A stretch of 64,000 nt of DNA, from NCBI GenBank assembly GCA_947568835.1, contig OX387612.1:3038001-3102000 (forward strand), given 5' to 3'. This stretch comes from Protonemura montana. Lineage: Eukaryota > Arthropoda > Insecta > Plecoptera > Nemouridae. The number at the start of each line of letters is the position of its first letter. The first letter of the stretch is position 1. Of the stretch, positions 8,901 to 35,900 are shown piece after piece. Made by a program: the position numbers and the translations under genes. Below the pieces are notes generated by a model. The model was not told where the DNA came from. It ran no database searches and was given only the letters and a program-made list of their open reading frames with translations.

Positions 8901-11900
8901 CTCCCCACTCCACTGTTTGGAGGGGTAATGAGTAGCTACCGATTCATGGGTCTCCCCACTCCGCTGTTTGGAGGGGTAATGAGTAGCTACCGATTCATGT
9001 GTCTCCCCACTCCACTGTTTGGAGGGGTAATGAGTAGCTACGATTCATGGGTCTCCCCACTCCGCTGTTTGGAGGGGTAATGAGTAGCTACCGACAGCAG
9101 ACTTTTAACACAATTAAAAACAATTATTTTATTTGAAATGAAAGAAGTAAAATGCCTAAACACTTTTCACTTTCTCAAAATTTGTATTGTTTATGTAATA
9201 AAAAATGCAAATAACTCAACTCTATTACTTCTTGGGAAACCGAAGGCGACAACAAAAAGTTTTTTATTCTGAGTTTCCCACAAATTTCCCGCAGAATAAT
9301 TGTTTGAGTATTTTATTAGTGACTCAGCAACACGTGAGAATAACGCCATGCAAACAGATTTGCTTTAATAGTGGTCTGTACGGGCCATGCTAAAAGCCCA
9401 GTTAAGCTTTTTTTTTTTCTCTCGTTTTAGCTTTGTCCTTAGATTGCAACTATTTGTATGAAAAAGAACCGTCCCTTAATGGTATTAAATGCTGTTTTAT
9501 TTGCATTTGTTTCTTTCTCTAATACACTGGTTCCTCTGTTGACAAGGCAAGGAGCAGACTTACCGATTCCTCGAGTTCGGCCAAGAAGTCACAGAGGGCG
9601 ACAGCGTCTCTCACGTGAGCGCTGCGCATGCCCGAGATTTCGACAGGGTTTTTCATGGCCTTCATGAAGATTATCGGCGACTCGACTGTCAAAATCTTGT
9701 CTCTTGGTACCTGTATTGGAAAACAGCTGCTAGAAAGAGTGAAGCTACGCCTGTCTCTGTTTATTGTTAAACCAGAAATGCGTTGGAAAGGAAGCTGGAC
9801 TGGAAAAATGTGCAACTCCAGTCTAAATTGCTTTCCATTCTTCGCTTGCTGGTTCCAGCTTCCTTCCCATCCTTCGCTTGCTGGTTTCAGCTTCCTTCCC
9901 ATCCTTCGCTTGCTGGTTCCAGCTTCCTTCCCATCCTTCGCTTGCTGGTTTCAGCTTCCTTCCCATCCTTCGCTTGCTGGTTTCAGCTTCCTTCCCATCC
10001 TTCGCTTGCTGGTTTCAGCTTCCTTCCCATCCTTCGCTTGCTGGTTCCAGCTTCCTTCCCATCCTTCGCTTGCTGGTTTCAGCTTCCTTCCCATCCTTCG
10101 CTTGCTGGTTTCAGCTTCCTTCCCATCCTTCGCTTGCTGGTTTCAGCTTCCTTCCCATCCTTCGCTTTCTGGTTTCAGCTTCCTTCCCATCCTTCGCTTG
10201 CTGGTTTCAGCTTCCTTCCCATCCTTCGCTTGCTGGTTTCAGCTTCCTTCCCATCCTTTGCTTGCTGGTTCCAGCTCCCTTCCCATCCTTTACTTGCTGG
10301 TTCCAGCTCCCTTCCCATCCTTTACTTGCTGGTGTCAGCTTCCTTCCCATCCTTCGCTTGCTGGTTTCAGCTTCCCTCCTATCCTTCGCTTGCTGGTTTC
10401 AGCTTCCTTCCCATCCTTCGCTTGCTGGTGTCAGCTTCCTTCCCATTCTTCGCTTGCTGGTTCCAGCTTCCTTCCCATCCTTCGCTTGCTAGTTTCAGCT
10501 TCCTTCCCATCCTTCGCTTGCTGGTTTCAGCTTCCTTCCCATCCTTCGCTTGCCGGTTTCAGCTTCCTTCCCATCCTTCGCTTGCTGGTTTCAGCTTCCT
10601 TCCCATCCTTCGCTTGCTGGTTTCAGCTTTCTTCCCATCCTTCGCTTGCTGGTTTCAGCTTCCTTCCTATTCTTCGCTTGCTGGTTCCAGCTCCCTTTCC
10701 ATCCTTCGCTTTCTGGTTTCAGCTTCCTTCCCATCCTTCGCTTGCTGGTTTCAGCTCCCTTCCCATCCTTCGCTTGCTGGTTTCAGCTTCCTTCCCATCC
10801 TTTGCTTGCTGGTTTCAGCTTCCTTCCCATCCTTCGCTTGCTGGTTTCAGCTCCCTTCCCATCCTTCGCTTGCTGGTTTCAGCTTCCTTCCCATCCTTCG
10901 CTTGCTGGTTTCAGCTTCCTTCCCATCCTTCGCTTGCTGGTTCCAGCTTCCTTTCCATCCTTCCCATGGCACAATTTTCCAGGCTAGCTCCCCTTTTCAT
11001 CCATTGCTTATTGGTTAAAGCTTTTGTGTGCGAAAAACCAGAAAAATCACAAAAATCCTGCTTTTCCATTGATCTTCTAAAGATATAAAAACAGGATTTT
11101 GGAAAAAATGAGAGACGAGGTTTGGCTCTTTAATAAGCATTCTTGGCGATCTGAGTACTACTTGTCTATGTAAGTCAGTAAAATTATGTATGCCTTGATA
11201 GCTCAATTTTTAGAGCACACGCCAGTACAAGGTCCCGGGTTCGCATCTCAGTTTAGTGGCACGTTTTTCCAGGCTGTAGCTGCTCTACCTAACACAGTGG
11301 TAAGGAATGTTGTGCATGTCAAAAACACATCATTCAAACAAATAATCACATTCAAAATAAGCTAGTTATTTCGGGTTCTACGAAAATAATTTACAAGTGT
11401 CCTTCACTGTTGTCATAGCTGGTGACTTTCATTATAATTACATCGCAGGTTTAATTTTCTAAAACCTCATTGCATATAAGAAATGGTTGACTCTATTGCA
11501 TCATAGTAATAACTTCTTCCATAACATACGGACAAATGTTTATTTTTGAACTGCTTATAGTTATTATTATTATTTTTGGTGTTTAACGACGCACTGTTTT
11601 GATATCTGGCCATATGGCACTGGTCTAATGGCATCGGTGAATGAGTGGATGATGATGAGGATGATGATGAACCTAACCTAGCCTAGAAGGGAGGAGGGCA
11701 AACCCGGTGTCGACACGTAGCCTACTCCTGTCGAAGAGCACCAAGGGGACCACTGGCTTCACGTCCCTTCCGAAGGACGGTACAACGTGAAGAACAGGAT
11801 TCCTTCACAAATCCATGCTGTCGAGAGGTTGATAAGCAAGGCGAGTGAAGTTCCTATACTAACTTTCATCCCTCCAACCTCTCTCCCGAACAAAACTGGT

Positions 11901-14900
11901 CATGTGTATGATGGTCACCCATCCAATACCTGACTCAGCGCAGTGTAGCTTAACTTTCATCCCTCCAACCTCTCTCCCGAACAGAACTGGTCATGTGTAT
12001 GATGGTCACCCATCCAATACCTGACTCAGCGCAGTGTTGCTTAACTTCGGTGATCTAACGAGGACCGGTGTTTCCAACACGCCAAACCGTTCGGTTGCTT
12101 ATAGTTTCACTGACCGCTGTGTAGATGGCGTGGCTGACGCCCTTGGTGTAGACGCACTCGTCAGGTAGCAGCACTTTGGTCCACGCCTGGGAGAACGTGC
12201 GGATGTCGCTGACAACAGTCTCGTATGGATGCACCCTGGCGGTCGAGGATCAAACGTAAAGTCAGATCAAGATGTACCAAATCTTACAGAGCTGGTAATC
12301 ATGAGATAGAGTTAGTTATCATTTTCAATTCATTGAAAATCTAGAAATTGTCTTTTCAGTAATATTTTGGGATTTTGGAATAAAGGAATAATAATAAAAA
12401 AAAAATTAAAAATTAATAAAATGACGAAAAGCAATAAATAAAGTTAACCAGAGTTTGTGTGTTTAGTTGTTATCACCATGGTAACAAGTACTACTAAACA
12501 TCTGGAAACACAGTCTGTGATTGGCTGATCAACTTTTAACTCTGGGGTTAAACATTAACTTTGCTTTCTGGAACAAGACTCTCAATTTCGCTGCAGGTAA
12601 TTGGAATTAACCATGGCAAAAAAAACATATACAAAAAATCGTTTGGTAACATGAGTAAAAAACGATGAAATTTGAAAGATTATCAAAGATCAACCCTTTT
12701 TTGGCTTGCTGATCTAACGTTGAATGGAGGTGAAAGCGAAAATCTATAAAATTTTCCATCATTTGAGACGGTTTTTCCAAACATTTCAATTTAATAAATG
12801 CATATGATTAGCCCTTGGTACAAAAACGACTATACATACTACCTACTCTAAACGCTTACCTTGTACAGAAGGTAGATTCCGAGCAGTGGTCGATCTTCAG
12901 TTGCCTCCTGACAGCAAGACTGATCTTTTTGTCGTCAACATAAAGATGCAGTTTATCCATCTCGATGATGACAAACGCCTTGACAAACGGATTGAACGGA
13001 ATATCCTGGCCACGTATGTTCAGGAGCCAGGCAACCTCGTCCAGGGCCGTCACGACCATCGCACTGGCGTTGAACGTCTTTAGCTTGATGCGAAGAGACT
13101 CGACTTTAGACAGCCAGGAGACTCCTGAACGAGCATGCAGATAACAGACCGGTAAGACTTACCACAAAGATGGTGTTTTTACAAAATTCAGACAGAAATA
13201 TCCACTCAGGGCAGTTTTACCAAAATGTTCAACTATAAGTTGGATCTCTAGCTCACAGAAACATCTGAATTTCACTGCATGTGATTGGAAGTCGTCATGG
13301 CAACAGTTTCAACAAAATGTTCAACTATAAGTTGGATCTCTAGCTCACAGAAACATCTGAATTTCACTGCATGTGATTGGAAGTCGTCATGGCAACAGTT
13401 TCAACAAAATGTTCAACTATAAGTTGGATCTCTTACTCACAGAAACATTTGAATTTCACTGCATGTGATTGGAAGTCGTCATGGCAATATTTTCAACAAA
13501 CACTTCATCTAGGAGGCGAGATTTTGGTAAATTGGACCTTAGTGAGGTCAGTTTGTAGATCAGTATATAAATGTGGCCAAAGTTACTCAAAAAAGTACCA
13601 TAAATAGATATTTTTTTAGCTTAATTTTTTTTAAATAAATAAAAAAGTAAATACTATGGTTTGAGAAGGTAAGATGATGGAAGTTAGTACAGCAAATTCA
13701 CTCGCCTTGTTTATCAACCTCTCGTCAGCATGGATTTGTGGAGGAATACTGTTGGTCGAGTTAACTAAATCGTATGGTGTTGGGTTTCCTCTCTTATTTA
13801 AACTAGGTCAAAGTAGGTTGGTAAACAAACTCATTTACTGACACCTTAAGACCCGTTGTCAAAACAGTGCGTCGTTAAGCATGACAAATTATCATCGGCT
13901 TACCGGCAAACGCAATGTCGTAGACATACGCAGGTGACGTCGAGTAGGTTGGTCGGTCTGCGGTCCATATTTTGTCCACCATGTTGGAGCTCAGCGCGAC
14001 AAGCGTGATGCCGGACAACGCTGGGATTTGAAACAAAGATGTTCGCTCACAGCAAGACTTTTTAGCCACAAGAACTTATGAGTTTTCTTCCCAAAGAGGC
14101 TCTTAAAGAGGCTTGCACCTTGACAGATTTAAAATGTTTTGAACATAAATCTGACCAGCTTAGATAAAGGAATACAAATAATCTTCGAGAAGGAGATATA
14201 TACGAAAAGAAAGGCTTCAAATAATGGATTTTTAGACTCATGTCTACTTTATTTCACCTTAGCACTTTTGTGGTTCTTTTGTTCAAATGTCAGGACTGCT
14301 TTAACCCCTGATAAAGTAACAGGTACAAGTTACGAAACGTCGGGAAATTTAGTTGTTCTTCACTTAGCATTCAAAACCCAGTTGAAATAGTTTTTTAGTT
14401 TGAAGTTCGATAGTTTTACTGTTTTGAGTAAAAGTTAGTTCGGCCTTGCTTATCAACCTCGCGACAGCATGGATTTGTCGAGGAATCCTGTTGTTGGCGT
14501 TGTACCGTCCTTCGAAAGGGATGCTAAGCCGGTGGCTACATGCCAGCGCCGGGTTTCCCCTCTTCTATACTAGACTAGGTAAGGTTCATCATCATTCTCA
14601 ACATCAACCACTCATTCACCGACGCCATTAGACCAGTGCCGCATGGCCAGATGTCAAAACAGTGCGTCGAAAAACACCACAAACCGATTCCACCTTTTTC
14701 AAGCTCAACTCCAGAGGTTCTTGTTATTTTTTTGTTATATTTTGTTCATGATGGACTCACTGAGCTGCTCGCTCCATTTCCGCCACTTGGTGTGTGGTAT
14801 TAGGTGGGCGTCTGCACCAACTTTCGAGCCCGGCTTCAGCTTCTGACGCAGCCAGTCGGGGACCGAAGGCACCCCGAGCTCTCCCTCCTTCATTATCAAC

Positions 14901-17900
14901 CTGGAAACATCCAGAAAAAAAACTTACATACTTACCCGTAGTTGATGATCTTTTGTGGTTTTACAATGTCTACTTTCTTATGAAGGGTTTGTAGTTGTGA
15001 AAAGGCCTTTCGGCTAAGTTTGTTCCGCTATATTCAGGGAATAGTCTTACTTTGAAGATCGTTCGGATTATACCTTGATTTTTTAGGATGCCTAGACAAG
15101 GTATTTGTTTAAATTTTGTGTGGTTCTTCTGTAATCGGAAAATTGTCAGGACTGCTTTAACCCTTGATAAAGTTACATGTACAAGTTACGAAACGTCGGG
15201 AATTTAGTTGTTCTTCACTTGGCATTCAAAACCTAGTTTTAAATAGTTTGTTTATTTCAGAGAAGTTTGTAGTGCACCAACCAGTCACAGCTTAGTTGAG
15301 CGTCAGCTTGCAGGAAGTACCGTCCGTCCGTCCAGAGCGCTGCATCTTGGCGCGTCACAACAGCGTCACCGTACGAACCAGAGAAGCCGGACACGTATTC
15401 TCGGCGTCGGTCACGGCTAGCCACGTACTCACTCTAGCGGCGTCAAAAAGAATGAAAACCACTCATAGTTAGAACAAAATGGCGCTAGATTATATCACAT
15501 GCCAATTGTTTCAATTTTACTTCAAAGTAGTATAAATGGAAAATGTTGCAAGACAGCTGTGTGGTCGACCATTTTAACTGGTGGACTTCACCATTGCTCT
15601 TTTGAGTTAATGTTGCAAGCCAGCTGTATTGTCGACCATTTTAACTGGTGAACTTCACCATTGCTCTTATGGTTTAATGTTGCAAGACAGCTCTGTGTTC
15701 GGCCATTCTTACTGGTGGATTTCACCATTGCTCTTATGGGTTAATGTTGCAAGCCAACTGTGTGGTCTGCCATTCTAACAGGTCGAATTTACCATTGCTC
15801 TTATGGGTTATTGTTGCAAGACAGCTGTGAGGTCGGCCAATTTAACTTGTGGACTACATCAATGTTCTTATGGGTTAATGTTGCAAGACAGCTGTATGGT
15901 CGGCCATTCTAACTGGTGGACTTGACCATTGCTCTTATGGGTTAATGTTGCAAGACAGCTGTGTGGTCGGCCATTCCAGCTGGTGGACTTCACCATTGCT
16001 CTTATGGGTTAATGTTGCAAGACAGCTGTGTGGTCGGCCATTCTAACTGGTGGACTTCACCATTGCTCTTATGGGTTAATGTTGCAAGACAGCTGTGTGG
16101 TCGGCCATTCTAACTGGTGGACTTCATTGCTCTTATGGGTTTATGTTGCAAGACGCCATCGCTATTTCAACATTTGGTACCAACTTATTTCTTTAGATAT
16201 TTTCTGTTAACACAATTTTAAATCTAAGAGGTCTACTTTTTACAGAAAATACCGACCTGGTGCTCGTCATCCGACGTCACGATGAAAGCTTCTATGGAGC
16301 GGGCCGTGTTCTCTCTGTGCATGGCGATGCGCAGGCGCGCTAGACGGGAGCTGGTGTTTACTCTGTGAGGCGATGGCAGCGCTCGCATGTTTGGCGGGCA
16401 ACCTTCACGAGAGTAGACTCGAGTCTCTTCGGGCATGTTCGGGTCGCCACTGCTCACAGATGCGAACACTGGAAGAGTAGACATGCGCGATGACGTTAGA
16501 TATTGTTTTTTTGAGTTGTTTTTTTCCTGAACTCAAATGATATTATTCTTTTTTGGAACTAAACAAATTGTCTGTCAAAAACAGGCGGTAATTTTTCTCT
16601 TTGAAAAGGTAATATCTAAACGAGGATTGGAACCCCGATCTCCACCTGTTGGTGGTGTTGCTCTAACCAATTGAGCTACTTGAACCCCGATCTCCACCTG
16701 TCGCGGGTGTTGCTCTAACCAATTGAGCTACTTGAACCCCGATCTCCACCTGTCGCGGGTGTTGCTCGAACCAATTGAGCTACTTGGACCCCATCTCCAC
16801 CTTTTGCGGGTGTTCTAACCAATTGAGCTACTTAGACCCCGATCTCCACCTGTCGCGGGTGTTGCTCTAACCAATTGAGGTACTTGAACCCCGATCTCCA
16901 CCTGTCGCGGGTGTTGCTCTAACCAATTGAGCTACTTGAACCCCGATCTCCACCTGTCGCGGGTGTTGCTCTAACCAATTGAGCTACTTGAACCCCGATC
17001 TCCACCTGTCGCGGGTGTTGCTCTAACCAATTGAGCTACTTGGACCCCGATCTCCACCTTTTGCGGGTGTTCTAACCAATTGAGCTACTTGAACCCCGAT
17101 CTCCACCTGTCGCGGGTGTTGCTCTAACCAATTGAGCTACTTGAACCCCGATCTCCACCTGTCACGGGTGTTGTTCTAACCAATTGAGCTACTTGGACCC
17201 CGATCTCCACCTGTCGCGGGTGTTGCTCTAACCAATTGAGCTACTTGGACCCCGATCTCCACCTGTCGCGGGTGTTGCTCTAACCAATTGAGCTACTTGG
17301 ACCCCGATCTCCACCTGTCGTGGGTGTAGCTCTAACTAATTGAGCTACTTGGACACATAATTTGTTTAAATAATTTTAGTGCACTTGATGAGAATAACTT
17401 ATCTCCAAAGAGTTGATTCACGAGGCTGTAAATACTCACAGTCACTCTGATTTTAATAATATTTTAATGACATGTTCATTTGTTCAAAAACTTGTCTTTT
17501 TTTTTAAATTTGAACGGACATTGGTCATTTTATCTTTAACATTTTCTAAAACTCTTCTCTCTTATCGTTGATTGTATTCTAGCACTGGTCTAAAAGTGTT
17601 TGAAAGCAAAAACCACGAATCTTTTGATAGCAAACGAATTCAATGGAAGACATTCGCTGACATATGTCAGATTATGAAACATTTGCCGACTTTCCGATCG
17701 GTCTATCAAATGATTGATGTTGCACTAATGGAGTTTAATGTAATTTTGATGCCGAGCACGAGATGGAGCTGTCAAACAGAACCTGTGACAGGTGCATGAT
17801 GAATGACAGGCGCACCCAAATTTCTGTTCTTTCAGCAATCGATTGGTTTCTACCATTTAGTTGACAGGTTTTGGTCAATGTCCCAGCACCTATTGATACA

Positions 17901-20900
17901 TCCGCACAAAAAAGGCAAAAAATCCACATTTATAAAAAGAAAAATTAATGAGACTACCAGATGGAGTCTCCGTCGTTTCGAATGTTAAGCAAAGTCATTT
18001 CGTTATTTCTCGCAGAATACTCGCATTTACTAAACAGCAAGCGCCATCGGGTGGCACCTACCGTTACTACGTGTTGCCGGCCCCGTTTGCTCAGCAGCAA
18101 GCGCCATCGGGTGGCACCTACCGTTACCACGTGTTGCCAGCCTCGTTTGCTCAGCAGCAAGCGCCATCGGGTGGCACCTACCGTTACCACGTGTTGCCGG
18201 CCTCGTTTGCTCAGCAGCAAGCGCCATCGGGTGGCACCTACCGTTACCACGTGTTGCCGGCCTCGTTTGCTCAGCAGCAAGCGCCATCGGGTGGCACCTA
18301 CCGTTACTACGTGTTGCCAGTCTCGTTTGCTCAGTAGCAAGCGCCATCGGGTGGCACCTACCGTTACCACGTGTTGCCGGCTTCGTTTGCTCAGCAGCAA
18401 GCGCCATCGAGTGGCACCTACCGTTACTACGTGTTGCCGGCCTCGTTTGCTCAGTAGCAGGCGCCTTACGGTGGCGCCTACCGTTACCACGTGTTGCCGG
18501 CCTCGTTTGCTCAGTTGCAAGCGCCATACGGTGGCGCCTACCGTTACTATGTATTTCCACGCTTAACCCAATGCCCTACATAACTTTTATGTTTAGTAAT
18601 AATTATAAAAACATTTGCACGCATTTTGCCTCTAGTTTTGGCAGTGGAATGCTTTTCCTCTTCGCACCGCTACCTTTAGACTGTCATTGCCAGAATAGCA
18701 AACAGACGTGCGTGAGACGTGCGTATCGCCACGTGGCATGTGTGTAAAAACGCCACGCATGCCACGTGTTGAAAATAAACATCCGGTGGAGTGAATCCAC
18801 GGTCCGTTCAGAGTAAGCCAGTGACAGATTCTCTGTTGTAATATCTCCAGGGGATATATTTGAAGCGTTTATATGGGCTTGGATTTGGAATTAGCTCTAA
18901 GAGCAAAAGATTCTGTAGAAACTTGCACGCACCATCTTTGCAATTACTTAACAAATATTTCTAAAAGTCAATAAAAATAACGACTCCACTGCCATGTTTA
19001 GTTTGTGACTAAAAATAAAAACATCAAACGAGTTTTTAAAACTCAGTTCAAATAGTTTTTGTCAAAACTTGTGCAAAGTTTAGATGAAACAGATATGAGT
19101 CTAAAAACCAATGGAATTGAGTTTTTCAATTTAACAATGTCTAGTTTTACAAGAAAAGTAAGATTATTACATAATTATAAAGAAAGATTATTTAACCTAG
19201 AAATTTGGCTACTTGCCAACAGCCTAAAATTGACCAACTCAAAGTTTTTTTGTGATTATTTGATTGATTTTTGGCCCTAAAAGTGTTCTTTTATGCGTGG
19301 AAACCTTGAAATATCGTTTGTATAATCTTGAATGTTTGCTGTAATGTCAGGCGATATGCATATGGACTTATTTCAATCATAACGCGCAGGTTTTTAATAC
19401 AATTTTGGACACTTTTTGGTAAATAATCACCTAGTTTTGTATATGTTTATTGGCTACTGACTAGTAAAATTATAATTGTATATGCCTTATATTCTTGTAA
19501 AGATTTTTATTGGTAGGTAATGTTGGACAAATTGTTTTAAAGTAATAATAATAATAATAATAATAGTGGAAGGTATAGAATGTCATAAAATGGTAGTAAT
19601 TAGAGTAGTAATAATGGTTTAAATAGCGGAAGTTGTTAATTACCAAGTTATTTGTAGTATTGAAAGAGTAAACCTGTCAAGTGCTTTGCCTGAAGCGTAG
19701 TTTGTCGTCAGGTTTTCGTGGCTTGGTGTGAATTGACAGCTGAGATTTGAATCTCTGTGCGCGAAAACAGCTGCCTGTCGTGCAAGTGAAGAGAGACAAT
19801 AATGTTGGCAGGGGAAGAAAACAGTTTGAAAAGAGATCTTTTTGTCAACGCTTTTCACACAGTTGTTTCATCGAGAACAGCAAATATTATCACCTATTGA
19901 GAATCAAAATGGTGAAAGCTATTTTTTTAAATAAGAAACACATTTAAATTTTGTAACGGCAATGTTTTCTATCTATTTTGGCACACCATCAGCTTTTTCC
20001 TCGGCCTTTTTATCTAAGACCGGTGTTTCTAATACGTCAAACCGTTTGGTGGTCACTCATCCAGTACCTGACCCAGCGCAGTGTTGCTTAACCTTCATCC
20101 CTCCAACCTCTCTCCCGAACAGAACTGGTCATGTGTATGATGGTCACCCATCCAATACCTGACCCAGCGCAGTGTTGCTTAACTTTCATCCCTCCAACCT
20201 CTCTTCCGAACAGAACTGGTAATGTGTATGATGGTCACCCATCCAATACCTGACCCAGAGCAGTGTTGCTTAACTTTCATCCCTCCAACCTCTCTCCCGA
20301 ACAGAACTAGTCATGTGTATGATGGTCACCCATCCAATACCTGACCCAGCGCAGTGTTGCTTAACTTTCATCCCTCCAACCTCTCTCCCGAACAGAACTG
20401 GTCATGTGAATGATGGTCACCCATCCAATACCTGACCCAGCGCAGTGTCGCTTAACTTTCATCCCTCTAACCTCTCTCCCGAACAGAAATGGTCATGTGT
20501 ATGATAATCACCCATCCAATGCCTGACTCAGCGCAGTGTTGCTTAACTTCTGTTATCACATGATGACCGGTGTTTCGTATTAGGTTTACCTTAATTTTTT
20601 TTTTCTTTTACATCATGATGAAACAACAACACTTCACTAATATCGGTAATCGATTTCTGAATCTCATTACGATTATTAAAAATGAGAGCAAAATATGGTG
20701 CAATATCCTGTGGCACGTACTTCAAGTAATATATTATCTATTATTTGATAAAATACTCAATAATGTCTCCTCAGGTGATTTGTACATTTACATCGTGGGT
20801 TTGCATCTGTTCTGGTCATCTGGCGTAGAAGTTTACCCGATGTGATTTTTTTTAGGGGAAACACAAGAAAAACCAGTTAGAAAGTTGGGATCATTTCCTG

Positions 20901-23900
20901 GACACCGTCCTGCATAGGGTGAGTTTACGTACATATAATACAATTTATTGTATATATTATATACAATATAATATCATTAGTTAGTCTTGTATTTTTTTTT
21001 TCTGAAATAGCTGACTATTTAGACGGGTTTCATCTAGGTTGAAACGGTCTGGATTGGTCTGGATCTGGTTTTGACCACCAGGCATTGGACAGTTAAGTTA
21101 TGTCTTTAAATTAACAAATTATTCCATTTTGAGAATGTTTAAAATAATTTTTTCCAAACAGTGTAGATGAGTTTGAAAAATCTTCTTGATTTAAAATTAA
21201 ATCCTGATTATCGGCCCGATCTCACCAAAATTAAGCTAAACTTGGCTCAAAATCTGTTTAATCCCCAAATTACCACAGAAAACTCGGTAATTCACATTTA
21301 AATTATTGAGATTAATTGAAAAGTTAATGAAGTTATTAACAAAAAATTATAAATTAATAATTAATTATAGTTATAGTTATTGTTTTTAATTGAAAATATG
21401 AATTACATAATAAATAATATATTTAAAAAACGGAGGTAATTATTTAAGAAATCACATTTGGAAAAATTCACGACCAAAATGTCGGTGAATCAAAAATAAA
21501 TGTTTCAAAAAACTAAATCAGAAATTTAAAATTTCTATAATTTTTTTTGTCATTGTGGTACTAATTGACATTTGAATCTGGCCCAGGCTAAACATGGATC
21601 CCAACGTAAAACACCTGGTCGACAACCTCGTCAAGTCCGACAACGACCAGCGACTCTAACGAGCACTGGAACTAAACAATGGCATGAAAATCCTCCTGAT
21701 CAACGACAAAACAACTGACAAATCAGCCGCAGCCCTTGACATCAATGTCGGTCACCTCAGCGATCCGGCAAAACTTCCAGGACTTGCACATTTCTGTGAA
21801 CACATGCTCTTTATGGGTACCGAAAAATATCCACCTGAAAATGAATACAGTAAATTTTTGTCTGATTTTGGAGGTTTAAACAATGCATCAACATATGCGG
21901 ACCATACCAAATACTATTTTGACGTCGTTCCTGAACAACTACCTGGAGCTCTGGATAGGTTTGGACAATTCTTTTTGTGTCCTCTCTTTACTCAGAGTGC
22001 TTCAGACAGAGAAGTGAACGCAGTGAACGCAGAACACGAGAAGAATGTTCAAGAGGATTCCCACAGGCTATATCAGCTGAAAAAATCAAACGGAAATAGA
22101 TTTCACGCATACCACAAATTTGGAACGGGAAATATTAAAACCCTGGACGTTTTACCAAAAGAAAATGGAATAATTGTGCGAGAAGAATTGCTTAAATTTC
22201 ATGAAACTTGGTACTCGTCGAATGTCATGAGTCTTGTCATTTTGGGAAAGGGTGAGTACATTAATTTGTGGTGTTTAACGACGTAATTTTTTGATAGCGG
22301 GTATGTGGCACTGGTCTAATGGCGTCAGTGAATGAGTGGATGATGATGAACCTAACTTAGACTAGAAGAGAGGAGAGGATCCCCGTGCCCGCACGTAGCC
22401 TACTTCTGTCGAAGACTAAAGGGACCAACGGCTAAACTTCCTTTACGAAGGACGGTACGACGTCAACAACAGGATTCCTCCACAAATCCATGCTGTCGAG
22501 AGGTTGATAAGCAAGGCGAGTGAAGTTGCTGTACTAACTTTCATCCCTCCAACCTCTCTCCCAAACAGAACTGGACATGTGTATGATGGTCACCCATCCA
22601 ATAACAGACCCAGCGCAGTGTTGCCTAACTTTCATCCCTCCAACCTCTCTCCCGTACAGAACTGGTCATGTTTATGATGATCGCCCATCCAATACCTGAC
22701 CCAGCGCAGTGTTGCTTAACTTTCATCCCTCCAACCTCTCTCCCGAACAGAACTGGTCATGTGTATGATGGTCACCCATCCAATACCTGACCCAGCGCAG
22801 TGTTGCTTAACTTTCATCTCTCCAACCTCTCTCCCGAACAGAACTGGTCATGTGTATGATGGTCACCCATCCAATACCTGACCCAGCGCAGTGTTGCTTA
22901 ACTTTCATCCCTCCAACCTCTCTCCCGAACAGAACTGGTCATGTGTATGATGGTCACCCATCCAATACCTGACCCAGCGCAGTGTTGCTTAACTTTCATC
23001 CCTCCAACCTCTCTCCCGAACAGAACTGGTCATGTGTATGATGGTCACCTAAACAATACCTGATCCAGCGCAGTGTTGCTTAACTTTCATCCCTCCAACC
23101 TCTCTCCCAAACAGAACTGGACATGTGTATGATGGTCACCCATCCAATAACAGACCCAGCGCAGTGTTGCCTAACTTTCATCCCTCCAACCTCTCTCCCG
23201 TACAGAACTGGTCATGTTTATGATGATCGCCCATCCAATACCTGACCCAGCGCAGTGTTGCTTAACTTTCATCCCTCCAACCTCTCTCCCGAACAGAACT
23301 GGTCATGTGTATGATGGTCACCCATCCAATACCTGACCCAGCGCAGTGTTGCTTAACTTTCATCTCTCCAACCTCTCTCCCGAACAGAACTGGTCATGTG
23401 TATGATGGTCACCCATCCAATACCTGACCCAGCGCAGTGTTGCTTAACTTTCATCTCTCCAACCTCTCTCCCGAACAGAACTGGTCATGTGTATGATGGT
23501 CAACCATCCAATACCTGACCCAGCGCAGTGTTGCTTTACTTCCGTGATCTGAGAACCGGTGTTTCCAACACGACAAACCGTCCTGTTTATTTTTAAACGT
23601 AATCCATGCCCAATTTGATCAAAGAGAATTTAAGATTACTTGTATTTGCTAGCTGCCCTAACTTTCTGTTACGCGTTACTCCAGACGTTTGTAGCGAATT
23701 TTTTCTATTTTCATTTGTTTAACATAAAATGGCGGCGACGCGCGTAAAGCCCAACTGTTTACTGACATAGAGTGGCCAACTCTTTATAATGTTTATTAGG
23801 TGCTCGAGTTTTCGTGGTGGATCTTTGGAGGTACGTGTTTTTCTTGGCACCGCTTTTCAAGCACCGACCGCTTCTGTTCAAGAAGACTTCATTTGGTTGA

Positions 23901-26900
23901 ACGACATTATTATGTTGTGACTTACAAGTGGCAAGACACCCAAGTTGTATGGTTTTTACGGCCGACTGTGACTTAACTAAACGGTTTTGTTGTCATTTTG
24001 AAACTGCTAGCATGTAAGTGTTACTCCATCGAGATAAAGATAAAGATAACGATAACGAATTTATCTTGATCGGTTATCTTTTATTTATCTTAAATTTTCT
24101 CTAGCATCAGAGCAATGTTGCCATCAAAAAATTTTTTTTTAGTAAAAAAAATCTTTGTTTCCCAGTAAAAAAAAATAATAACTTGAAAGAACATTAAAAC
24201 ATGTGTGTATTGTTTTTATCTTCCATAACTTCCTAGGTGTGATCATAGACCAAAGACTTGACTGGGAAATGCACATTTCAAAGACCTGCCTAAAGGTAGC
24301 ATCTAGCTGTTACTTAATAAGGAAACTAATGCTTACCTGTAACCTAGAGACGGCCAAACTTGTATACTTTGCTCAAATACAATCGCGCTTAAGCTATGGT
24401 ATAATATTGTGGGGCTGGACACCACATCCCAAAAGATTATTTATATTACAGAAGAAATCTGTAAGGATACTTGGGAAAGCAAGCAAAGACCCATGTGCCG
24501 AGGTATACTACAAAGACTCATGCTCAACTCTCTTTAAAAAATTCTGTATTTTAACCTTACCTAGTTTGTATATATACTCAGCCATTATGTATGTAATTTT
24601 AAATAGCCATTTAGTGACTGCGAACGCAGATGTCCACCAGCACTACACCAGAGGCTACGAGCAAATGTATGTAAAGAAAAATAAATTAAAAAAATCTGAC
24701 AAATGCCCTATGCATGCCGGAGCTCTATTATATAACAAACTGCCAGCCAATATTAAAATTAAAAAGGGAGACAATTTTAAGAAAATGCTAAAACAATAGG
24801 TATCTCTTAAATGAATGTTTTTTTTTAAAAGATGATTTTTTACATAAGTAGACAACACACTGCAACGATGGTTTGCACTATACTGTATGAGTCACATTTC
24901 TATTCTACTTTTATTTTAGTTTTAAAGGATTGACTGTCTTCATAATATGTACAATGTTCCTGCTGACAATAAACAAATTATTATTATTATTATTATTATT
25001 AAATCGTTGGGATAGTGCACATTTTTTTCTTGGTGAAAAAAATAAAAAATACGGTTTACCATATTGGCTAGACACAATGAACGGTCACAATATGGTCGTG
25101 ATCAGATGATGAGTTTTCCAAAATTGGTTTTATTCAAATGTAGATAAAAAAGATTAAATATTTAAAAATTGTTTATCAGTGTCTAGCAGGTACTGCTTTG
25201 CAAATGTAGTTTATTTCCATGGACGCCAATGTGCACCAAAACGCGCATTAAAAAAAAATAGAGGGAATATTTTGCCAATTTTTTTTGCATATTCAGGTGC
25301 CAGAACATTAATGTTTATATACATAATTTTTTTTATCCAAGTCCTGTGCTTGCTAAAACTTAACTTCTATTTTGTAAGACAAAATTTGCATACAAAAATA
25401 ATGCGAAAGTATATGAACGCCAAAAAACCTCATCGAGTTTAAAAATGCTGACCTACTGGCAAATTTGTATAAAATAATAAATCAGAATTACATTAGCAGA
25501 ATACACGATGTGAATTTGATTGATTATAAATTGTGTTAACTCTATCCAACCCCCGCAAAGCGTGCGCTAAAATCTTGCAGTCCATCGTTCCATCTGTCAT
25601 TCTTGTCACAAACATCTGTTCGTCGGCGGCTTCCTCAGCTTGTGTTCTGTTTTTAGGCGTGTGACAATTACCTACTTCTAGAAACGTCATCTATAAATAG
25701 ATCGTACGTGTCCGCCAATAGGCGAGGCACTTGAAGAAACAAAAACATTGACCTGCGAGTAGCAAATCCGCTAGCCGACTTTGATCTCGATTTTAATTCA
25801 GTTCGTTCATTTTTATTGCACAGAAAATAATTTTTCTGTCTCATTGTCAGTAAACCAATGTAAATCATACATAAAGAATAATAATTTCTTTGAGGTTTTG
25901 AAAGCCGTTGGTGTATGAATCTTGTGGTATTTCGGTTTGTCTCTTTTTCAAAGGGTATTTTGTCCTAAAAAAGACTTCTGACGTTTCATCGGTCCCACCC
26001 TGAAGATGACAGATCGACAGACTGTCAAAACTTTGGGGCAAATCATTTATATATTTATTTATGAAACAGATTGCTACAATTATGCACAATGTCTGAGTAC
26101 TCTCTTCCATTCTTCCATCACACGTCTTTCTTTTACCCATTATCTAAAACTTTTCAAATTTGTTTGTCTCTTTTTCATCCAAAATTGCATTCCACTCTTT
26201 ACCACCTCTACCTACAATCACAGTCCCTTTCCTTCCTCATTGTTTTATCCTATCAATTTAAATTCATGTCCATTTTTTCCTCTTAACTTTGCCTTCTCTA
26301 ATCTGTCTCCTTCCTTCTTCCATGCAGTTCACCCCAGAAAGCATTTATACGTATATGTTAATTTTGTAAGTATTCTTCTTTTTTGTAATACTTCCTATTT
26401 GAATTCTGAAGTTAATTTTAGTAATGCTTATGTACTTTTTAGGACTAAAAACCCATAAAAATATACCATTAACTAAAAAACCACTAGATTCATAAAGAAT
26501 AGCCTTCAAACGTTGATCGCATCTTTATATTTATGCCCACCTTTACTTTTCGTATCAAGTGGGCGCACTCCAGATAGTCAATTTAAGAGGTTTTGATCAA
26601 ACAAAAAGGAAGCTAGGAGTAGAAACCGCAAGGCCGCGACTCGATAGCGTGGATTTCTGGAAATAGCCACAAGCGATGATTGACAATCTCAGGATGTTAG
26701 TTCGCTACCACCGGTCGCTATTGCAGACCAGAGGACCACGCCCTTGCGGCTAGTGATATTTCACTTAGAAAGATATAGAGGGCGACACTGTGATTTATTT
26801 TCTCTTTTTATTTTTTATCATTTTTGAGATAATGTTTGAAACGACGGTTCGTTTGATTATTATTTTACGTTGCTGATTGATTGATTAGTGGTGTTTAACG

Positions 26901-29900
26901 ACGCACTGTTTTCACAATGTTTTATTTGGCACTGGTCTAATGACATCGGTGAATAAGTGGATGATGAAGATGATTTTAACTTAGCCTAGAAGGAAGGAAG
27001 AGAAACATCGGTGCCGACACGTAGCCTACTCCTGTCGAAAACCAATGGGACCACTGGCTTAACGTCCCTTCCGAAGGACGGTACAACGTGAACAACAGGA
27101 TTCCTCCACAAATCCATGCTGTCGAGAGGTTGATAAGCAAGGCGAGTGAAGTTGCTGTACTAACTTTCATCCCTCTAACCTCTCTCCCGAACAGAACTGG
27201 TCATGTGTATGATGGTCACCCATCCAATACCTGATCCAGCGCAGTGTTGCTTAACTTTCATCCCTCCAACCTCTCTCCCGAACAGAACTGGTCATGTGTA
27301 TGATGGACACCCATCCAATACCTGACTCAGCGCAGTGTTGCTTAACTTTCATCACTCCAACCTCTCTCCCGATTAGAACTGGTCATGTGTATGATGGTCG
27401 ACCATCCAATACCTGACCCAGCGCAGTGTTGCTTAACTTTCAACCCTCCAGCCTCTCTCCCGAACAGAACTGGTCATGTGTATAATGGTCACCCATCCAA
27501 TACATGACCCAGCGCAGTGTTGCTTAACTCTCATCCCTCCAACCTCTCTCCCGAACAGAACTGGTCATGTCTATGATGGTCACCAATCCAATACTTTACC
27601 CATTGCAGTGTTACTTAACTTTCATCCCTCCAACCTCTCTACACATTTATTTTCAAATTCAGGTACCAGATCAATAAGATTTTAGGTGTTGTTAAAAAAA
27701 CTGCTTGTTAGCCGAAGTTCCGCCCCAGAACTATTGGAAGCCAACACAAGGTCCAAAAGCAAAAATGGAGAGAATTCAAGCAAATAAAAATCAAGCTACA
27801 CATTTGATTAAATATGTTTTCAAATGAAGCTAACGATCTAGACAAAATATTAACCAGCACCGTATGACACGGGCATTTATCATTATAACTCGAGGTGAGA
27901 AACGCACGCATGTCACGCATGCAAATCTGTCATCTGGCAACATATCAAACGTCATCAACATGAAGACCAGCGTGAAGTTTGCTAGAGAACTTCACCATTT
28001 TGGCAGAGAAAGTGGACCTTCTGTCGGCAATCTGTGAGTTTGATGCAAAAATGACCGCATTTTCTTTAGTAATTTGCATAAATAGTATTGATTGGAATCG
28101 ATTGAAAGTTGCATTAGACATAATGGTTTTTGATAACGCATGGTAAACATCTTGGTGACACGTCGGGTGGATTTCCAACAGTTAAATTATTTGAAAAATT
28201 TTAAATTTATATTGTATTTATGATATTAATGCAATATTATTTTTAATGTAACAGATTTACATGTATTGTGCATCTATTTACATTTTCAATATAAAGAAGA
28301 TATTCATGTCTCCGTATCAGCAAATTTCTCTTTAGCTGGAAACTTAAGTCGGGTTTTACCAAAATTTTGAACACTTAGTTGGATCTCTAGCTCACAGAAA
28401 CATCTGAATTTCACTGCATGTGATTGGAAGTCGTCATGGCAACAGTTTCAACAAAATGTTCAACTATAAGTTGGATCTCTAGCTCACAGAAACATCTGAA
28501 TTTCACTGCATGTGATTGGAAGTCGTCATGACAACAGTTTCAACAAAATTTTAAACAATAATTTGGATCTCTAGCTCACAGAAACATCTGAATATCACTG
28601 CATGTGATTGGAAGTCGTCATGGCAACAGTTTCAAGAAGCACTTTAACTAGGAGGCAAGATTTTGATAAAACCAGACCTAAATATCAAAAAATCTAAACT
28701 GTAAAATACTGTTGTAGGTCAACTTAACAGGAAGCAAGAATAAAGCCTCCTTGAATGACTCTATGACATTAACGTAGCTTTGAAATATGTCACAAAAAGT
28801 AACGTAACTTTTGTCTTTTGGAATTAATTTAATTAGTTGTGTTCCAGAAGGCGTCGGCTTTGTCCTTGTCACAGAACAAGGACACGCTGGTGACGTACTC
28901 GACTTGTTTCCAGGAAGGGGTGGTCTACGTGAATCGGTTGTAAAAAGTAGGTGTGTTGAACTTTCTTTTGATTTGTTGATGGATTGTCGTGACTGGAGGA
29001 AGGTTTCAAACGTGGGTTTTACAACAATGTAATTAAATCTAGCTTTACTTGGTTTCTATTTGGTTTCAAGAGAAAATTATTTACTAACAATTTCAATAAT
29101 ATTTTATGATCAATGATCAAAAACAATGTGATCAATAAACAATGATATTTTAATAATTGCAAAACAAGAAACTATGACAACACACGAAGAACAAGAATAA
29201 AATAGTTTTTAACAATGTGTTTGCTTCGAAACGGAATATTTGGTGACTTGGAAATACAAACCAAAAATCAATGGGACTTCTTTTGTGATTTTTTACTGGC
29301 AAATCCAATTGAAAATATTTTGGCTCTTGCAACACTTCGTCCCCACCCCCTTTAGGTCCAGTTTTACCAAAATCTCGCTTCCTACTTGAAGTTTTAGTGA
29401 AAATATTGCCATGACGACTTCCAATCACATGCAGTGAAATTCAGATGTTTCTGTGAGCTAGAGATCCAACTTATAGTTGAACATTTTGTTGAAACTGTTG
29501 CCATGACGACTTCCAATCACATGCAGTGAAATTCAGATGTTTCTGTGAGCTAGATATCCAATTTATAGTTCAAATTTTTAGCAATACCCAACATCAAATC
29601 CACGTACCCCTGATTTAACCATTGAAACAAAATATAATAACGTCTAATCTTAGTTAAGTCAATCAATCTTTAAGCTCTTTAAGCACCCACATAAGCTTAC
29701 CTCCAACAAAACCTAGCGGAAACTAACATCCAAAAAAAACCGCTAACCCACGTGTGATTTTTCAGCAATTTTAAATTAAAAATATTATAATGAGCAAGCA
29801 AGCAGTCGGTCGCAAGTCACGTGGTTTCTAGAAATATTCTTCAGAAGTGATGACGTCACTGCATGGGGTGATATGGCGTGAGTGCTGCTGGTATATTTAT

Positions 29901-32900
29901 GTTTGTATTAAACAGAGCTGGTCTATGTGTTTCGGACGTGACAGTCCATTAATTATGATGGCCGTGGTCTTGATTATCCTTGTGGCCGGGAGAGATGTAG
30001 TTTCTTTTTTTTTTAAATAAGTCGATGGTTTTTCCCGCTAGATTGCAGTTTGCATCATAGGCATTGTAAATGTGGTACTGTTTAAATTATATTGCTCTTC
30101 TAATGTCGATTTCAGTACTGAATTAAGCGTAGGTTGGTCATTTCAGATATTGCTGATTTTATTTTGAAGTCTTGAGAAACACAAATTAATGTATTTTGAC
30201 ATAAAATATCTATTCCTATACCTACTTTTATGTATTTTAAGATAGTCTTTTTTATTACCGTACAAATTAAACCAACACAGATCTAGCTAGCGAGTGGGAA
30301 ATGTCCAAAGCAAATTTAAATTAATGTGTAATCGAATAACTGTATTTTAAATTTGCCTTTTCAATTCGTTGTCAAATTTGACCAACCCATCAAAAAAGGA
30401 ACTGTCAATTTTCATAAACATATCAAACTTTGGTTAGTAAATCAATATTTTCTTTGAAGAAGAACCTCAATTAAGGATTTTTATAAAAATAAAACTCTGA
30501 AAATTTCGTGCAAATCGGAGCAGGCATTTGGCCAGAAAAGCAAAATAAAATGGTGATTTTTTTTTCTGTGGTAGGTACATAAAATTGAAGATTTTTCTTT
30601 GCTCGGTGCATCATCAATACATTTTAATCAACACAATAGATTTTTTTTTAAGAAACCTAACTTTAAAATTTTTGTCAAAAGAAGGGCAAGCCTGCAAAAA
30701 AAACTATATATCATCATATAATCAAGTTGACTTTTAAAAAAACAATTCAACAAAACTCAACCTTTCGCCGAAATGTCCCAGTAGTTATCATCAGCACTCG
30801 CATCGCTACGCAGCCGACGCAATTCCCTCAAATCCCTAGGGAACTACACGTGTACAACGCCCCAACCCCCGCCCATAGCTTACAAATCACCTGACATTTC
30901 CCGCGCTCGCCCCCACGTGGAAACAAGATCGCCTCCCCCGAGACGGCAATCATGTTGATCGCCCTCCCTACGCTTTGATTGACTGGTACAAACTATGAAG
31001 ACACATGGTACACACCTTCCGCAACCAACTCTAATTATTATCAAACAGTTTAGAAAGAGGTCACTGATCGAGGAGGCCAGAAATAAGGGGGACATTTTCT
31101 CAATTTAAGCGAGATATTTAATGGTCTTTAGTGTTTTTAGAGATCTTTTCACGTGTTCGACTAGGCATGTGACTCTGTCCCAGTGCAACTTTCACGTGTT
31201 CGACTGGGCATGTAACTCTGTCCCAGTGCAACTTTCACATGTTTGACTGGGCATGTGACTCTGTCCCAGTGCAACTTTCACGTGTTCGACTGGGCATGTG
31301 ACTCTGTCCCAGTGCAACTTTCACGTGTTCGACTGGGCATGTGACTCTGTCCCAGTGCAACTTTCACATGTTTGACTGGGCATGTGACTCTGTCCCAGTG
31401 CAACTTTCACGTGTTCGACTGGGCATGTGACTCTGTCCTAGTGCAACTTTCACGTGTTCGACTGGGCATGTGACTCTGCCCCAGTGCAACTTTCATGTGT
31501 TCGACTGGGCATGTGACTCTGTCCCAGTGCAACTTTCACGTGTTCGACTGGGTATGTGACTCTGCCCCAGTGCAACTTTCACGTGTTCGACTGGGCATGT
31601 GACTCTGTCCCAGTGCAACTTTCATGTGTTCGACTGGGCATGTGACTCTGCCCCAGTGCAACTTTCATGTGTTCGACTGGGCATGTGACTCTGTCCCAGT
31701 GCAACTTTCACGTGTTCGACTGGGCATGTGACTCTGTCCCAGTGCAACTTTCACGTGTTCGACTGGGCATGTGACTCTGCCCCAGTGCAACTTTCATGTG
31801 TTCGACTGGGCATGTGACTCTGTCCCAGTGCAACTTTCACGTGTTCGACTGTGCATGTGACTCTGTCCCAGTGCAACTTTCACGTGTTCGACTGGGCATG
31901 TGACTCTGTCCCAGTGCAACTTTCACGTGCTCGACTGGGCATGTGACTCTGTCCCAGTGCAACTTTCACGTGTTCAACTGGGCATGTGACTCTGTCCCAG
32001 TGCAACTTTCACGTGTTCAACTGGGCATGTGACTCTGCCCCAGTGCAACTTTCACGTGTTTGACTGGGCATGTGACTCTGTCCCAGTGCAACTTTCACGT
32101 GTTCGACTTGGCATGTGATTCTGCCCCAGTGCAACTTTCACGTGTTTGACTGGGCATTTGACTCTGTCCCAGTGCAACTTTCACGTGCTCGACTGGGCAT
32201 GTGACTCTGTCCCAGTGCAACTTTCACGTGTTCGACTGGGCATGTGACTCTGCCCCAGTGCAACTTTCACGTGTTTGACTGGGCATGTGACTCTGTCTAA
32301 GTTCAACTTTCACGTGTTCAACTGTGCATGTGACTCTGCCCCAGTGCAACTTTCACGTGTTTGACTGGTCATGAGACTCTGTCCCAGTGTCACTTTCACG
32401 TGTTTGACTGGGCATGAGACTCTGTCCCAGTACAACTTTCACGTGTTCGACTTGGCATGTGATTCTGCCCCAGTGCAACTTTCACGTGTTTGACTGGGCA
32501 TTTGACTCTGTCCCAGTGCAACTTTCACGTGCTCGACTGGGCATGTGACTCTGTCCCAGTGCAACTTTCACGTGTTCGACTGGGCATGTGACTCTGCCCC
32601 AGTGCAACTTTCACGTGTTTGACTGGGCATGTGACTCTGTCTAAGTTCAACTTTCACGTGTTCAACTGGGCATGTGACTCTGCCCCAGTGCAACTTTCAC
32701 GTGTTTGACTGGTCATGAGACTCTGTCCCAGTGCAACTTTCACGTGTTCAACTGGGCATGTGACTCTGTCCCAGTGTAACTTTCACGTGTTCAACTGGGC
32801 ATGTGACTCTGTCCCAGTGCAACTTTCACGTGTTTGACTGGGCATGAGACTCTGTCCCAGTGCAACTTTCACGTGTTCGACTTGGCATGTGATTCTGCCC

Positions 32901-35900
32901 CAGTGCAACTTTCACGTGTTTGACTGGGCATTTGACTCTGTCCCAGTGCAACTTTCACGCGTTCGACTGATAGAGTTGCTAGAGTTCCTAATAATAAAAT
33001 ACCCCACGCATTGCAAGCGTTTCCAATTTTCACATGAAGTAGGTTTTTTTTTTATATTATCTCGCACTATTTATACGCAGTTGCTGTCCGAATTTCAGCA
33101 CTTTTGACTGAGAATATTGTGCGCCTTCGACAAAGTCTGGGCTTATAACTAACAACCCGTTAAAGGCAACAAAAATAAAAACACCATTGCAAAACTTGGA
33201 TAATTATGGTTAGCGGACAGAAATGTATAAAAATGTTAAGCTGTGGGTCACTGATAGTAAAAATTTAAACAATATAATTCTGAAATTTTTCTAGTGAGAT
33301 TTGCGATGCACTTTGGGAAAAACTACAATAAAAATCATGTAAATATGACAGTTTTGCTTCAGGAATAATTTACAATTGTAAATATTTCAAGTTGAAATCT
33401 CTTAAACTGAGTGATTAATTATTTGTTTAATCAGTATTAAAATGTAATTCACTTTTAAACCATATAATCAAAGATATAAAATAGGTTCAACGTCACGCTA
33501 TCAACTCAAAGGGCGAGTCCTGTTCCCCCTAAATATCTGCAATATTATCTGTAGAATGCATCCGTGTTCCAATGGTTGCCTATCTGGTGTTTGCAAGGCG
33601 CACGTGAGATCTAGGCGTGGTCCCGTGGGTCGTGACCTACTTAGCCAATCACCGCAACCCAGATGCAAGGCGATGAGGAATTTTCATTGTTTGTTGTTCC
33701 GTCTCTCGATCAAAACTTTGCAGTTGTTAAAGTCTAATTTACTGAGCTCTTTTAAAGCACTTTTATGTTGTGCTCCAGTTCGAAGTTTGGTTAATTTAAG
33801 ACAAAAACTACACTTTTTATTTATTTACTGTTTAAAAATGGATTTAAAAACCATTTTCATCATTTTAAGATTATGTTTAAGTTTATTTTTGAACTTTTAG
33901 TGTATTTTTGTACTTTCAATATTCCTGGAAGATAATTTAAAATTAATAAAAATATCAATTCATAATAAACACAAGCTTGAACTACGAATTTGCGAATATC
34001 TTTAAAGGATTTCTAAGTATTTTAAAGAATATAATTGACTATTCATTGATTCAAAAGAATTCCAGTAAAAGCTATGTTTTAAGAAGTTAAAAAAATTGTA
34101 AACACGTGTCAGTTGTAATGAGATTCTTTCTAAAAATAAACGAGTTTCTCAATTTAGGAATTCATAATCTCTTAAATTTTTAACATTTCAAGGCACAATT
34201 GACCAAAACCTCGTTGAAAAATTGTTAAATGTGTCCAAATTGGAACGTAAAAGCGATTGATTTAAAAAAAAAAATACATTTCAACGTCAAATTTATTCAA
34301 TATACGTGATATTCTGGCAAAAACCTCTTTTAACTCGAAGAGTGGTAAAAAAATGTTAACCTTAACGTCTAGATTCAAACTGAAAACAAAAATTAGCTTA
34401 TGAAGAAAAAGAATTGACAGCTCCGCATTAATTTAGAATTAGCTGGTTGTCGATATTCCTCGGTTTCCCTACCTATATTTAGCTGCGTATTTCTACCAAT
34501 TCATATTATGCAAGAAGGTGACGAAAGCTGTTAGCTGGTCCACCTATAAGGCCAATATTAACGAAACCGGATACCGGAAGCGTCGAGATCGATCTCTTAA
34601 ACATAATACCGTCTCCACCCAGAGTGAATCTATTCCTGCCAAGTCGTAAACATTATCATGGCATTGTAAAAATCAACTACAGTCCAGCCAGTGAGAGAAA
34701 ATACCAGCACAAGGACTGTTTCCTGCATTGCTACAGTCTAGCCCGTGAGAGAAGATACCAGCACAAGAACTGTCCCCTGCATTGCTACAGTCTAGCCCGT
34801 GAGAGAAGATACCAGCACAAGGACTGTCCCCTGCATTGCTACAGTCCAGCCCGTGAGAGAAGATACCAGCACAAGGACTGTCCCCTGCATTGCTACAGTC
34901 CAGCCCGTGAGAGAAGATACCAGCACAAGGACTGTTTCCTGCATTGCTACAGTCTAGCCCGTGAGAGAAGATACCAGCACAAGAACTGTCCCCTGCATTG
35001 CTACAGTCTAGCCCGTGAGAGAAGATACCAGCACAAGGACTGTCCCCTGCATTGCTACAGTCCAGCCCGTGAGAGAAGATACCAGCACAAGGACTGTCCC
35101 CTGCATTGCTACAGTCCAGCCCGTGAGAGAAGATACCAGCACAAGGACTGTCCCCTGCATTGCTACAGTCTAGCCCGTGAGAGAAGATACCAGCACAAGG
35201 ACTATCCCCTGCATTGCTACAGTCTAGCCCGTGAGAGAAGATACCAGCACAAGGACTGTCCCCTGCATTGCTACAGTGTAGCCCGTGAGAGAAGATACCA
35301 GCACAAGGACTGTCCCTGCATTGCTACAATCTAGCCCGTGAGAGAAGATACCAGCACAAGGACTATCCCCTGCATTGCTACAGTCTAGCCCGTGAGAGAA
35401 GATAACAGCACAAGGACTGTCCCCTGCATTGCTACAGTCTAGCCCGTGAGAGAAGATACCAGCACAAGGACTGTCCCCTGCATTGCTACAGTCTAGCCCG
35501 TGAGAGACGATACCAGCACAAGGACTGTCCCCTACATTGCTACAGTCTAGCTCGTGAGAGAAGATACCAGCACAAGGACTGTCCACCAGCATTGCTACAG
35601 TCTAGCCCGTGAGAGAAGATACCAGCACAAGGACTGTCCCCTGCATTGCTACAGTCTAGCCCGTGAGAGAAGATACCAGCACAAGGACTGTCCACCAGCA
35701 TTGCTACAGTCTAGCCGGTGAGAGAAGATACCAGCACAAGGACTGTCCCCTACATTGCTACAATCTAGCCCGTGAGAGAAGATACCAGCACAAGGACTGT
35801 CCCCTGCATTGCTACAGTCTAGCCCGTGAGAGAAGATACCAGCACAAGGACTGTCCCTGCATTGCTACAGTCTAGCCCGTGAGAGAATATACCAGCACAA

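Follow-up and report, generated by a model that had tools for sequence, protein, structure and literature searches.

Tandem arrays built on a dispersed 5S rRNA-derived SINE of Protonemura montana are best read as SINE-derived satellites of a new variety which were made in place, and not as a new kind of SINE. It is proposed, with a probability of about 0.7, that single-unit SINEs insert and that their promoter segment then expands in place within minisatellite-prone zones which lie mostly near chromosome ends. Unrelated minisatellites and a tRNA-headed repeat family are tandemly arranged in the same zones, and the arrays accordingly resemble the outcome of a local DNA-repeat effect more than the hallmark of a novel SINE. 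The window, that is the whole stretch of 64,000 nucleotides under analysis, corresponds to C15:3,038,001-3,102,000; C15 is a contig of 12.97 Mb in a genome of 258.48 Mb and 34 contigs.

The focal element occupies 22264-23586 on the minus strand and consists of a head followed by eleven units of 91 bp and by a unique body. The unrepeated 5' part of its 5S-derived head (23542-23586) falls within a match to the Rfam 5S_rRNA family at 23474-23586, and the head of the family aligns to the genome's own 5S gene. The eleven units (22541-23541) each contain counterparts of the A box, intermediate element (IE) and C box and are 94.5-100% identical to the 91-bp unit, while the body and 3' end (about 22264-22540) lack a clear target site duplication. 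The array harbours the six-unit (546-bp) block duplication that had been read from the sequence alone: at a lag of six units the array is 99.3% identical to itself over 461 bases, compared with 93-96% at the other lags between one and nine. Units 2-5 (23087-23450, minus strand) represent the first copy of the block and units 8-11 (22541-22904, minus strand) the second, with the same changes found in both. Next to the element, a coding stretch at about 21900-22255 resembles by eye an exon of an insulin-degrading enzyme, in which case the focal SINE would sit in the following intron.

Judged by its sequence, the element is a 5S rRNA-derived SINE of the SINE3 class whose promoter is predicted to be of the Pol III type 1, an identity which the sequence-only reading had already proposed and which the head, the Rfam matches and the flanking repeats bear out. 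The 5S-related head includes A box, IE and C box, and the copies are dispersed and accompanied by target site duplications. Among 44 copies whose body match reaches the 3' end, 24 are flanked by an exact repeat of at least 7 bp (range 7-15 bp), compared with a mean of 2.4 and a maximum of 6 for shuffled flanks. The 3' tail varies and is made up of repeated AAT, AAAT or AATC, and the 3' end pattern occurs 6,831 times genome-wide, without an excess over the SINE counts. The 418-bp consensus has no LTRs, as its longest exact direct repeat is at most 7 bp.

The 91-bp unit corresponds to about positions 48-120 of 5S rRNA followed by about 20 bases. When aligned to the genome's own 5S gene (C11:1-240), the stretches GATCACCGAAGTTAAGCAACA on the A-box side and TTGGATGGGTGACC in the C box match exactly while the IE region is similar, and the predicted correspondence of every unit to the internal control regions of 5S rRNA thus holds. 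The sequence-only reading had equated the unit with the entire 5S-like head; the 91-bp tandem period stands, but the unit does not include the initial 45 bases of the head. Genuine 5S genes are found at other places; the scored matches (47 of 52,711 first-look candidates) are all full-length at 109-118 bits. Twenty-nine of the 47 are located at the start of contig C11 (C11:70-105,743) in repeated cassettes of about 9.5 kb which contain three genes each, two forward and one reverse.

Nine unit-bearing copies are present in the window, in line with the earlier count of at least eight copies carrying one to eleven units, and eight of the nine have at least two units. In order of position they comprise a copy with three units but no body on the plus strand (586-901), followed on the minus strand by copies with three units (2969-3505), two units (11572-12096, with an exact flanking repeat of 11 bp), five whole units and a partial one but no body (20012-20576), the eleven units of the focal element, five units without a head (26884-27640), three units (56028-56642) and five units (59808-60608), the last two each flanked by an exact 7-bp repeat, and finally a single unit (62822-63236). 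Head or body is thus missing from three of the nine. The heads of six copies match Rfam 5S_rRNA at the gathering score, namely that of the focal element and those at 60486-60606, 11975-12095, 3387-3505, 56522-56642 and 63120-63236. The minus strand holds eight of the nine window copies; genome-wide the unit-unit junction is balanced between the strands (13,376 versus 13,272).

An exact 27-mer of the unit matches the genome 10,662 times. Searches for junctions, which allowed up to three mismatches in 29 bases and may give lower bounds for the repeat counts, returned 26,648 junctions of the unit-unit type, 10,085 of the head type and 9,556 of the unit-body type, and reversed-pattern controls returned none. 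The ratio of these junctions amounts to a mean of between three and four units per insertion, where the head-junction count is not an exact number of insertions because the head pattern recurs in some arrays with a 92-bp period. The strong variation in unit number between insertions that had been suspected is evident from copies with anything from 1 to 49 units. The genome-wide search for the unit which the sequence-only reading had called for shows that multi-unit copies outnumber single-unit ones among young copies, with 1,084 that have at least two units and 513 that have one (up to three mismatches in 119 bases).

The number of units depends strongly on place. Forty loci were sampled on contig C1, covering 47 of the 48 exact head matches up to 27.36 Mb (the match at 930,831 was excluded), and copies were counted as unit-bearing if they include at least 50 bases of the unit, so that shorter ones such as those at loci L006 and L033 are uncounted. 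At least two units are found in 16 of the 17 unit-bearing copies at 0.22-1.75 Mb, with up to 49 units, and in none of the 32 copies at 1.76-27.35 Mb, which include fragments and one copy cut by the edge of its locus that was excluded from the divergence work. Window and C1 end combined, 24 of 26 copies are multi-unit as opposed to 0 of 32 in the C1 interior (Fisher P 2.5e-14), with a zone boundary that was chosen post hoc once the data had been seen, as was the 5-Mb cut-off applied below. Copies near the end are on average younger than interior copies; age does not explain the contrast, as it persists at a matched body divergence of 3.9-10.6%, where 12 of 13 copies in the end zones are multi-unit and 0 of 17 in the interior (P 1.5e-7). 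The description of the element as having an amplified promoter can consequently be kept for the tandem segment with its predicted type-1 promoter, but not for amplification as a property of the SINE itself.

Across the genome, 49 of the 50 listed exact matches to multi-unit heads (119 bases) are located within 5 Mb of a contig end, a region which makes up 44% of the eleven large contigs. The same is true of 44 of 54 young single-unit copies with zero or one mismatch (Fisher P 0.008 against the multi-unit list), and of seven out of eight at zero mismatches, which is the strictness applied to the multi-unit heads; when multi- and single-unit copies are compared by a rank test of how far they lie from a contig end, P is 0.08. 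The preference for chromosome ends known from SINE-derived satellites is therefore seen in the multi-unit copies, and exact single-unit copies share it. Since young copies of both types are mostly near contig ends, the whole-genome lists alone fail to separate them, while the local comparison on C1 does. A tree of head and body sequences is weakly resolved and does not separate interior from end copies with good support; several C1-end copies cluster together in it.

The array-rich zones are general MINISATELLITE zones. Tandem repeats with a period of 15-300 bp account for 26.7% of bases in the window and 30.0% in the loci at C1 0.22-1.75 Mb, but for 5.4% at C1 1.76-7 Mb and 0.6% at C1 7-27 Mb, and once the 5S arrays are subtracted the respective values are 21.3%, 16.7%, 5.4% and 0.6%. 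All tandem repeats at C1 1.76-7 Mb belong to a single locus, L013 at 1.76 Mb, whose SINE copy has one unit. Ten small loci on several contigs, whose unit numbers are no independent evidence because they were chosen from the single- and multi-unit lists, have no tandem repeats in the four interior single-unit cases and non-5S tandem repeats in four of the other six. The window itself contains ten minisatellites with units of 26-67 bp (8378-9094, 9831-10963, 15542-16154, 18035-18547, 31147-32969, 34677-35959, 37941-38779, 39752-40136, 42320-44042 and 51476-52178), which lie outside both promoter-bearing families and a 92-bp tandem family, and eight of them have no match elsewhere among the loci examined. 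This 92-bp family is unrelated to the 5S unit and forms arrays of 2 to 18 units at 13212-13500, 28353-28635, 29398-29578 and 52954-54631; outside the window one short match only was found in the 40 C1 loci. GC content was considered as a simple cause of the zones and rejected, given that the array-rich samples (38.9% in the window, 46.9% at the C1 end) straddle the interior value of 42.6% at C1 7-27 Mb.

A tRNA-headed repeat family shows parallel behaviour. Two of its elements on the minus strand of the window consist of tandem 52-bp units which run from A box to B box, with 14 units at 16613-17351 and nine at 61473-61948, and single-unit copies are found on the plus strand at 37416-37488 and 57704-57776. 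Genome-wide the family has 13,773 unit-unit and 3,830 3' junctions. Among the listed exact matches at C1 2-27 Mb, its arrays are within 10 kb of a 5S array at five out of five places (0.05 expected), which are not all independent: C1:20983300-20984100 and C1:22422900-22423700 are 99.1% identical over 794 bases including flank that is not SINE, so that the arrays at 20.98 and 22.42 Mb stem from the duplication of a single segment. The flank of these duplicated interior arrays resembles an exon and intron by eye.

The proposed mechanism would begin with the retroposition of a SINE that has one promoter-bearing unit, and after insertion the 91-bp stretch running from the A box to the beginning of the body would undergo a first tandem duplication. 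This would take place in expansion zones which comprise mostly the outer few megabases of the chromosomes plus a few interior pockets, and further units and block duplications would be added via unequal exchange or replication slippage. Expansion after insertion is the probable order of events, and slippage or unequal exchange the presumed agent. The block duplication in the focal element and the interior array at C1 8.96 Mb, in which twin units carry private changes, suggest growth by one of these two routes. The unit most similar to a given one belongs to the same array more often than expected, in 61 of 144 cases where 15 are expected, and pairs with at least three common changes make up 11 of 1,373 within arrays and 2 of 14,737 between elements. 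The place effect has exceptions, however, in the form of interior arrays at C1 8.96 Mb (five units) and 19.36 Mb (eight units), the tandem-rich locus L013 with its single-unit copy, and the young single-unit copies that are likewise close to contig ends.

Expansion in place also has to account for the uniformity of the arrays. Independent slippage events should yield varied units, yet nearly all sampled arrays share one common 91-bp joint. The element contains 21 direct repeats of 6-7 bp, and the one at this joint, AAGTTA (6 bp), is not among the best in three gapped self-alignments, although the match extends to AGCAAC with a 4-base insert, giving 12 bases in all; microhomology is thus insufficient as the cause of the fixed joint, because the 20 other direct repeats are equally good. 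Unit position 22 is A in the first unit and G in later units of four out of 24 arrays, as if units had been copied from elsewhere, and divergence within arrays (4.0%) is not far below that between arrays (5.4%). Other joints do occur. A second 5S type with a period of 92 bp and 5S positions 1-90 is found in L007, L010 and the end of the L064 array, and in L073 as judged by its period; the array at L011 has a 42-bp sub-repeat, and a 68-bp minisatellite in L007 has 25 bases of similarity to the SINE body. The part common to both main 5S joint types is the promoter.

A possible explanation for this uniformity, albeit clearly a less likely one than expansion at each locus, is that the initial duplication had one or a few origins and then spread from copy to copy in recombination-rich zones, by ectopic gene conversion or through repeat circles that were excised and reinserted. 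It would account for the single joint in spite of equally good direct repeats, for the A-then-G pattern at position 22 and for the restriction to zones. However, no interlocus homogenisation of units was found in the ratio of unit to body divergence, in the comparison of edge and middle units or in common haplotypes. The ratio is 0.52 in multi-unit and 0.41 in single-unit copies, which means that cross-locus homogeneity of units is not above the prediction from body age; middle units are no nearer to the family consensus than edge units in 20 arrays, whether compared with the last unit (P 0.45) or with the first (P 0.85), and unit haplotypes are almost never common to different elements. Growth after insertion is part of both this reading and in-place expansion, and the probabilities given to the alternatives overlap and do not add up to one.

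It is rather improbable that ready-made arrays were inserted, having formed in master copies or through template switching at the reverse-transcription step. Multi-promoter sources of this kind would be consistent with the shared joint, with the excess of young multi-unit over single-unit copies, both mostly near contig ends, and with the closeness of within- and between-array divergence, but every sampled interior copy of matching age has a single unit, arrays have almost no unit haplotypes in common, and unrelated minisatellites as well as the tRNA-headed family keep to the same zones. A role of the promoter in the expansion itself is likewise doubtful. The three main unit types (5S 46-136, 5S 1-90 and the A-to-B segment of the tRNA-headed family) always contain the whole internal promoter, and promoter-bound complexes in the zones near chromosome ends may trigger local re-replication, such that binding of Pol III factors or transcription would drive the expansion and convert SINEs into arrays of binding sites.

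The same feature, that the whole internal promoter lies within the units of the tRNA family and of the two main 5S joint types, would be expected if selection maintained stacked promoters, either for their transcription or so that Pol III factors can bind at chromosome ends. This is less probable still, as the box columns vary at least as much as the others. No extra conservation of the boxes is apparent in internal units, where box columns depart from the consensus in 2.4% and other columns in 1.9% of cases in 129 non-first array units (the 95% interval for this difference runs from -0.6 to +1.1 points, with CpG columns excluded), and the A and C stretches are both exact in 53 of these 129. 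The low box divergence of single-unit copies is not evidence here, because these copies were chosen by an exact match over the first 18 bases of the unit. Moreover, the ten window minisatellites of neither family have expanded as well. Tandem arrays are hard to assemble, but an assembly artefact is very improbable given that arrays are bounded by exact flanking repeats (e.g. L008, L005 and L004), that their units are diverged and ordered, and that one array recurs within the same assembly in two segmental copies at 99.1% identity including flank.

The closest precedent for arrays made in place is provided by the squamate SINE-derived satellites sSat1-3, in which a fixed part of a SINE is in tandem and a SINE terminus is kept (PMC10702118). 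The arrays described here likewise consist of tandem partial-SINE units whose ends retain SINE sequence. The squamate satellites are described as having a subtelomeric preference, a few to hundreds of units and up to thousands of loci, and the snake sSat has one dominant unit which includes the promoter box B (PMC10702118). They differ in that they derive from tRNA-derived SINEs in vertebrates (PMC10702118), whereas here each unit of a 5S-derived SINE in an arthropod contains the whole predicted type-1 control region, the tRNA-headed family is affected simultaneously and the arrays lie within a general minisatellite zone. Vassetzky et al. (2023) regard the restriction of SINE-derived satellites to squamates as uncertain (PMC10702118), and the present arrays suggest that subtelomeric SINE-derived arrays extend beyond squamates and beyond SINEs of the tRNA type.

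In insects, 5S SINEs of the SINE3 class include HaSE3 (PMC3272025), PxSE4 and PxSE5 (PMC8010984) and SINE3-1_TC (named in PMC3272025). Like the present element they combine a separate body with a 5S-like head that contains A, IE and C boxes, and target site duplications are reported for some (PMC3272025, PMC8010984). PxSE4 and PxSE5 measure 389 bp (PMC8010984) as opposed to the 418-bp consensus here, and the word 'tandem' is absent from the main text on HaSE3 (PMC3272025) and on PxSE4 and PxSE5 (PMC8010984), whereas the promoter part of the present SINE is repeated. A limited search of titles and abstract openings in the open-access literature found no prior 5S-derived SINE with a tandem promoter. 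Cassandra, which by the title of one article forms long tandem arrays (PMC7215508), and Ajax are also mobile and possess a 5S-type promoter (PMC7215508, PMC10886601). Their 5S part is described as residing in paired LTRs (PMC7215508, PMC10886601), unlike the SINE here, in which no exact direct repeat exceeds 7 bp, and their target duplications have a fixed length of 4-5 bp (PMC10886601) in contrast to the present SINE, where 24 of the 44 copies have exact flanking repeats of 7-15 bp. Tandem DNA derived from the promoter-bearing part of a SINE-like element, as in the present case, is also represented by Hydromantes Hy/Pol III and Xenopus Satellite 1; these are reported as satellite-type (PMC9659126), while the arrays here are short and spread over thousands of separate insertions.

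With its roughly ten thousand related insertions, this 258-Mb genome offers a natural reporter of the place effect. As the same sequence is single-unit in the sampled interior and has several units near the ends, the birth of minisatellites and satellites becomes directly testable, both in terms of where and how fast they arise and in terms of the share that place, sequence and age have in the process.

Several minor observations concern individual contigs. Exact matches to multi-unit heads of the 91-bp type are absent from the 29.6-Mb contig C16, which has four young single-unit matches near its end, one of them (L073) actually with two units of a 92-bp period; from the contig order one might guess that C16 is a sex chromosome. 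Its first 200 bases (C16:1-200) start with telomere-like (CCTAA)n, and C13:1-200 starts with (AAACC)n, which is possibly a variant. The (CCTAA)n repeat and the mitochondrial frames described below are traits that point to an arthropod. Nuclear copies of the mitochondrial cox1 region are present at C4:5760925-5762262 and C4:5776811-5777755, and one of them scores equal to the mitochondrial contig C34. On the latter, neighbouring frames look like nad2, cox1, cox2 and atp6 by eye, with cox1 alone confirmed by a family search.
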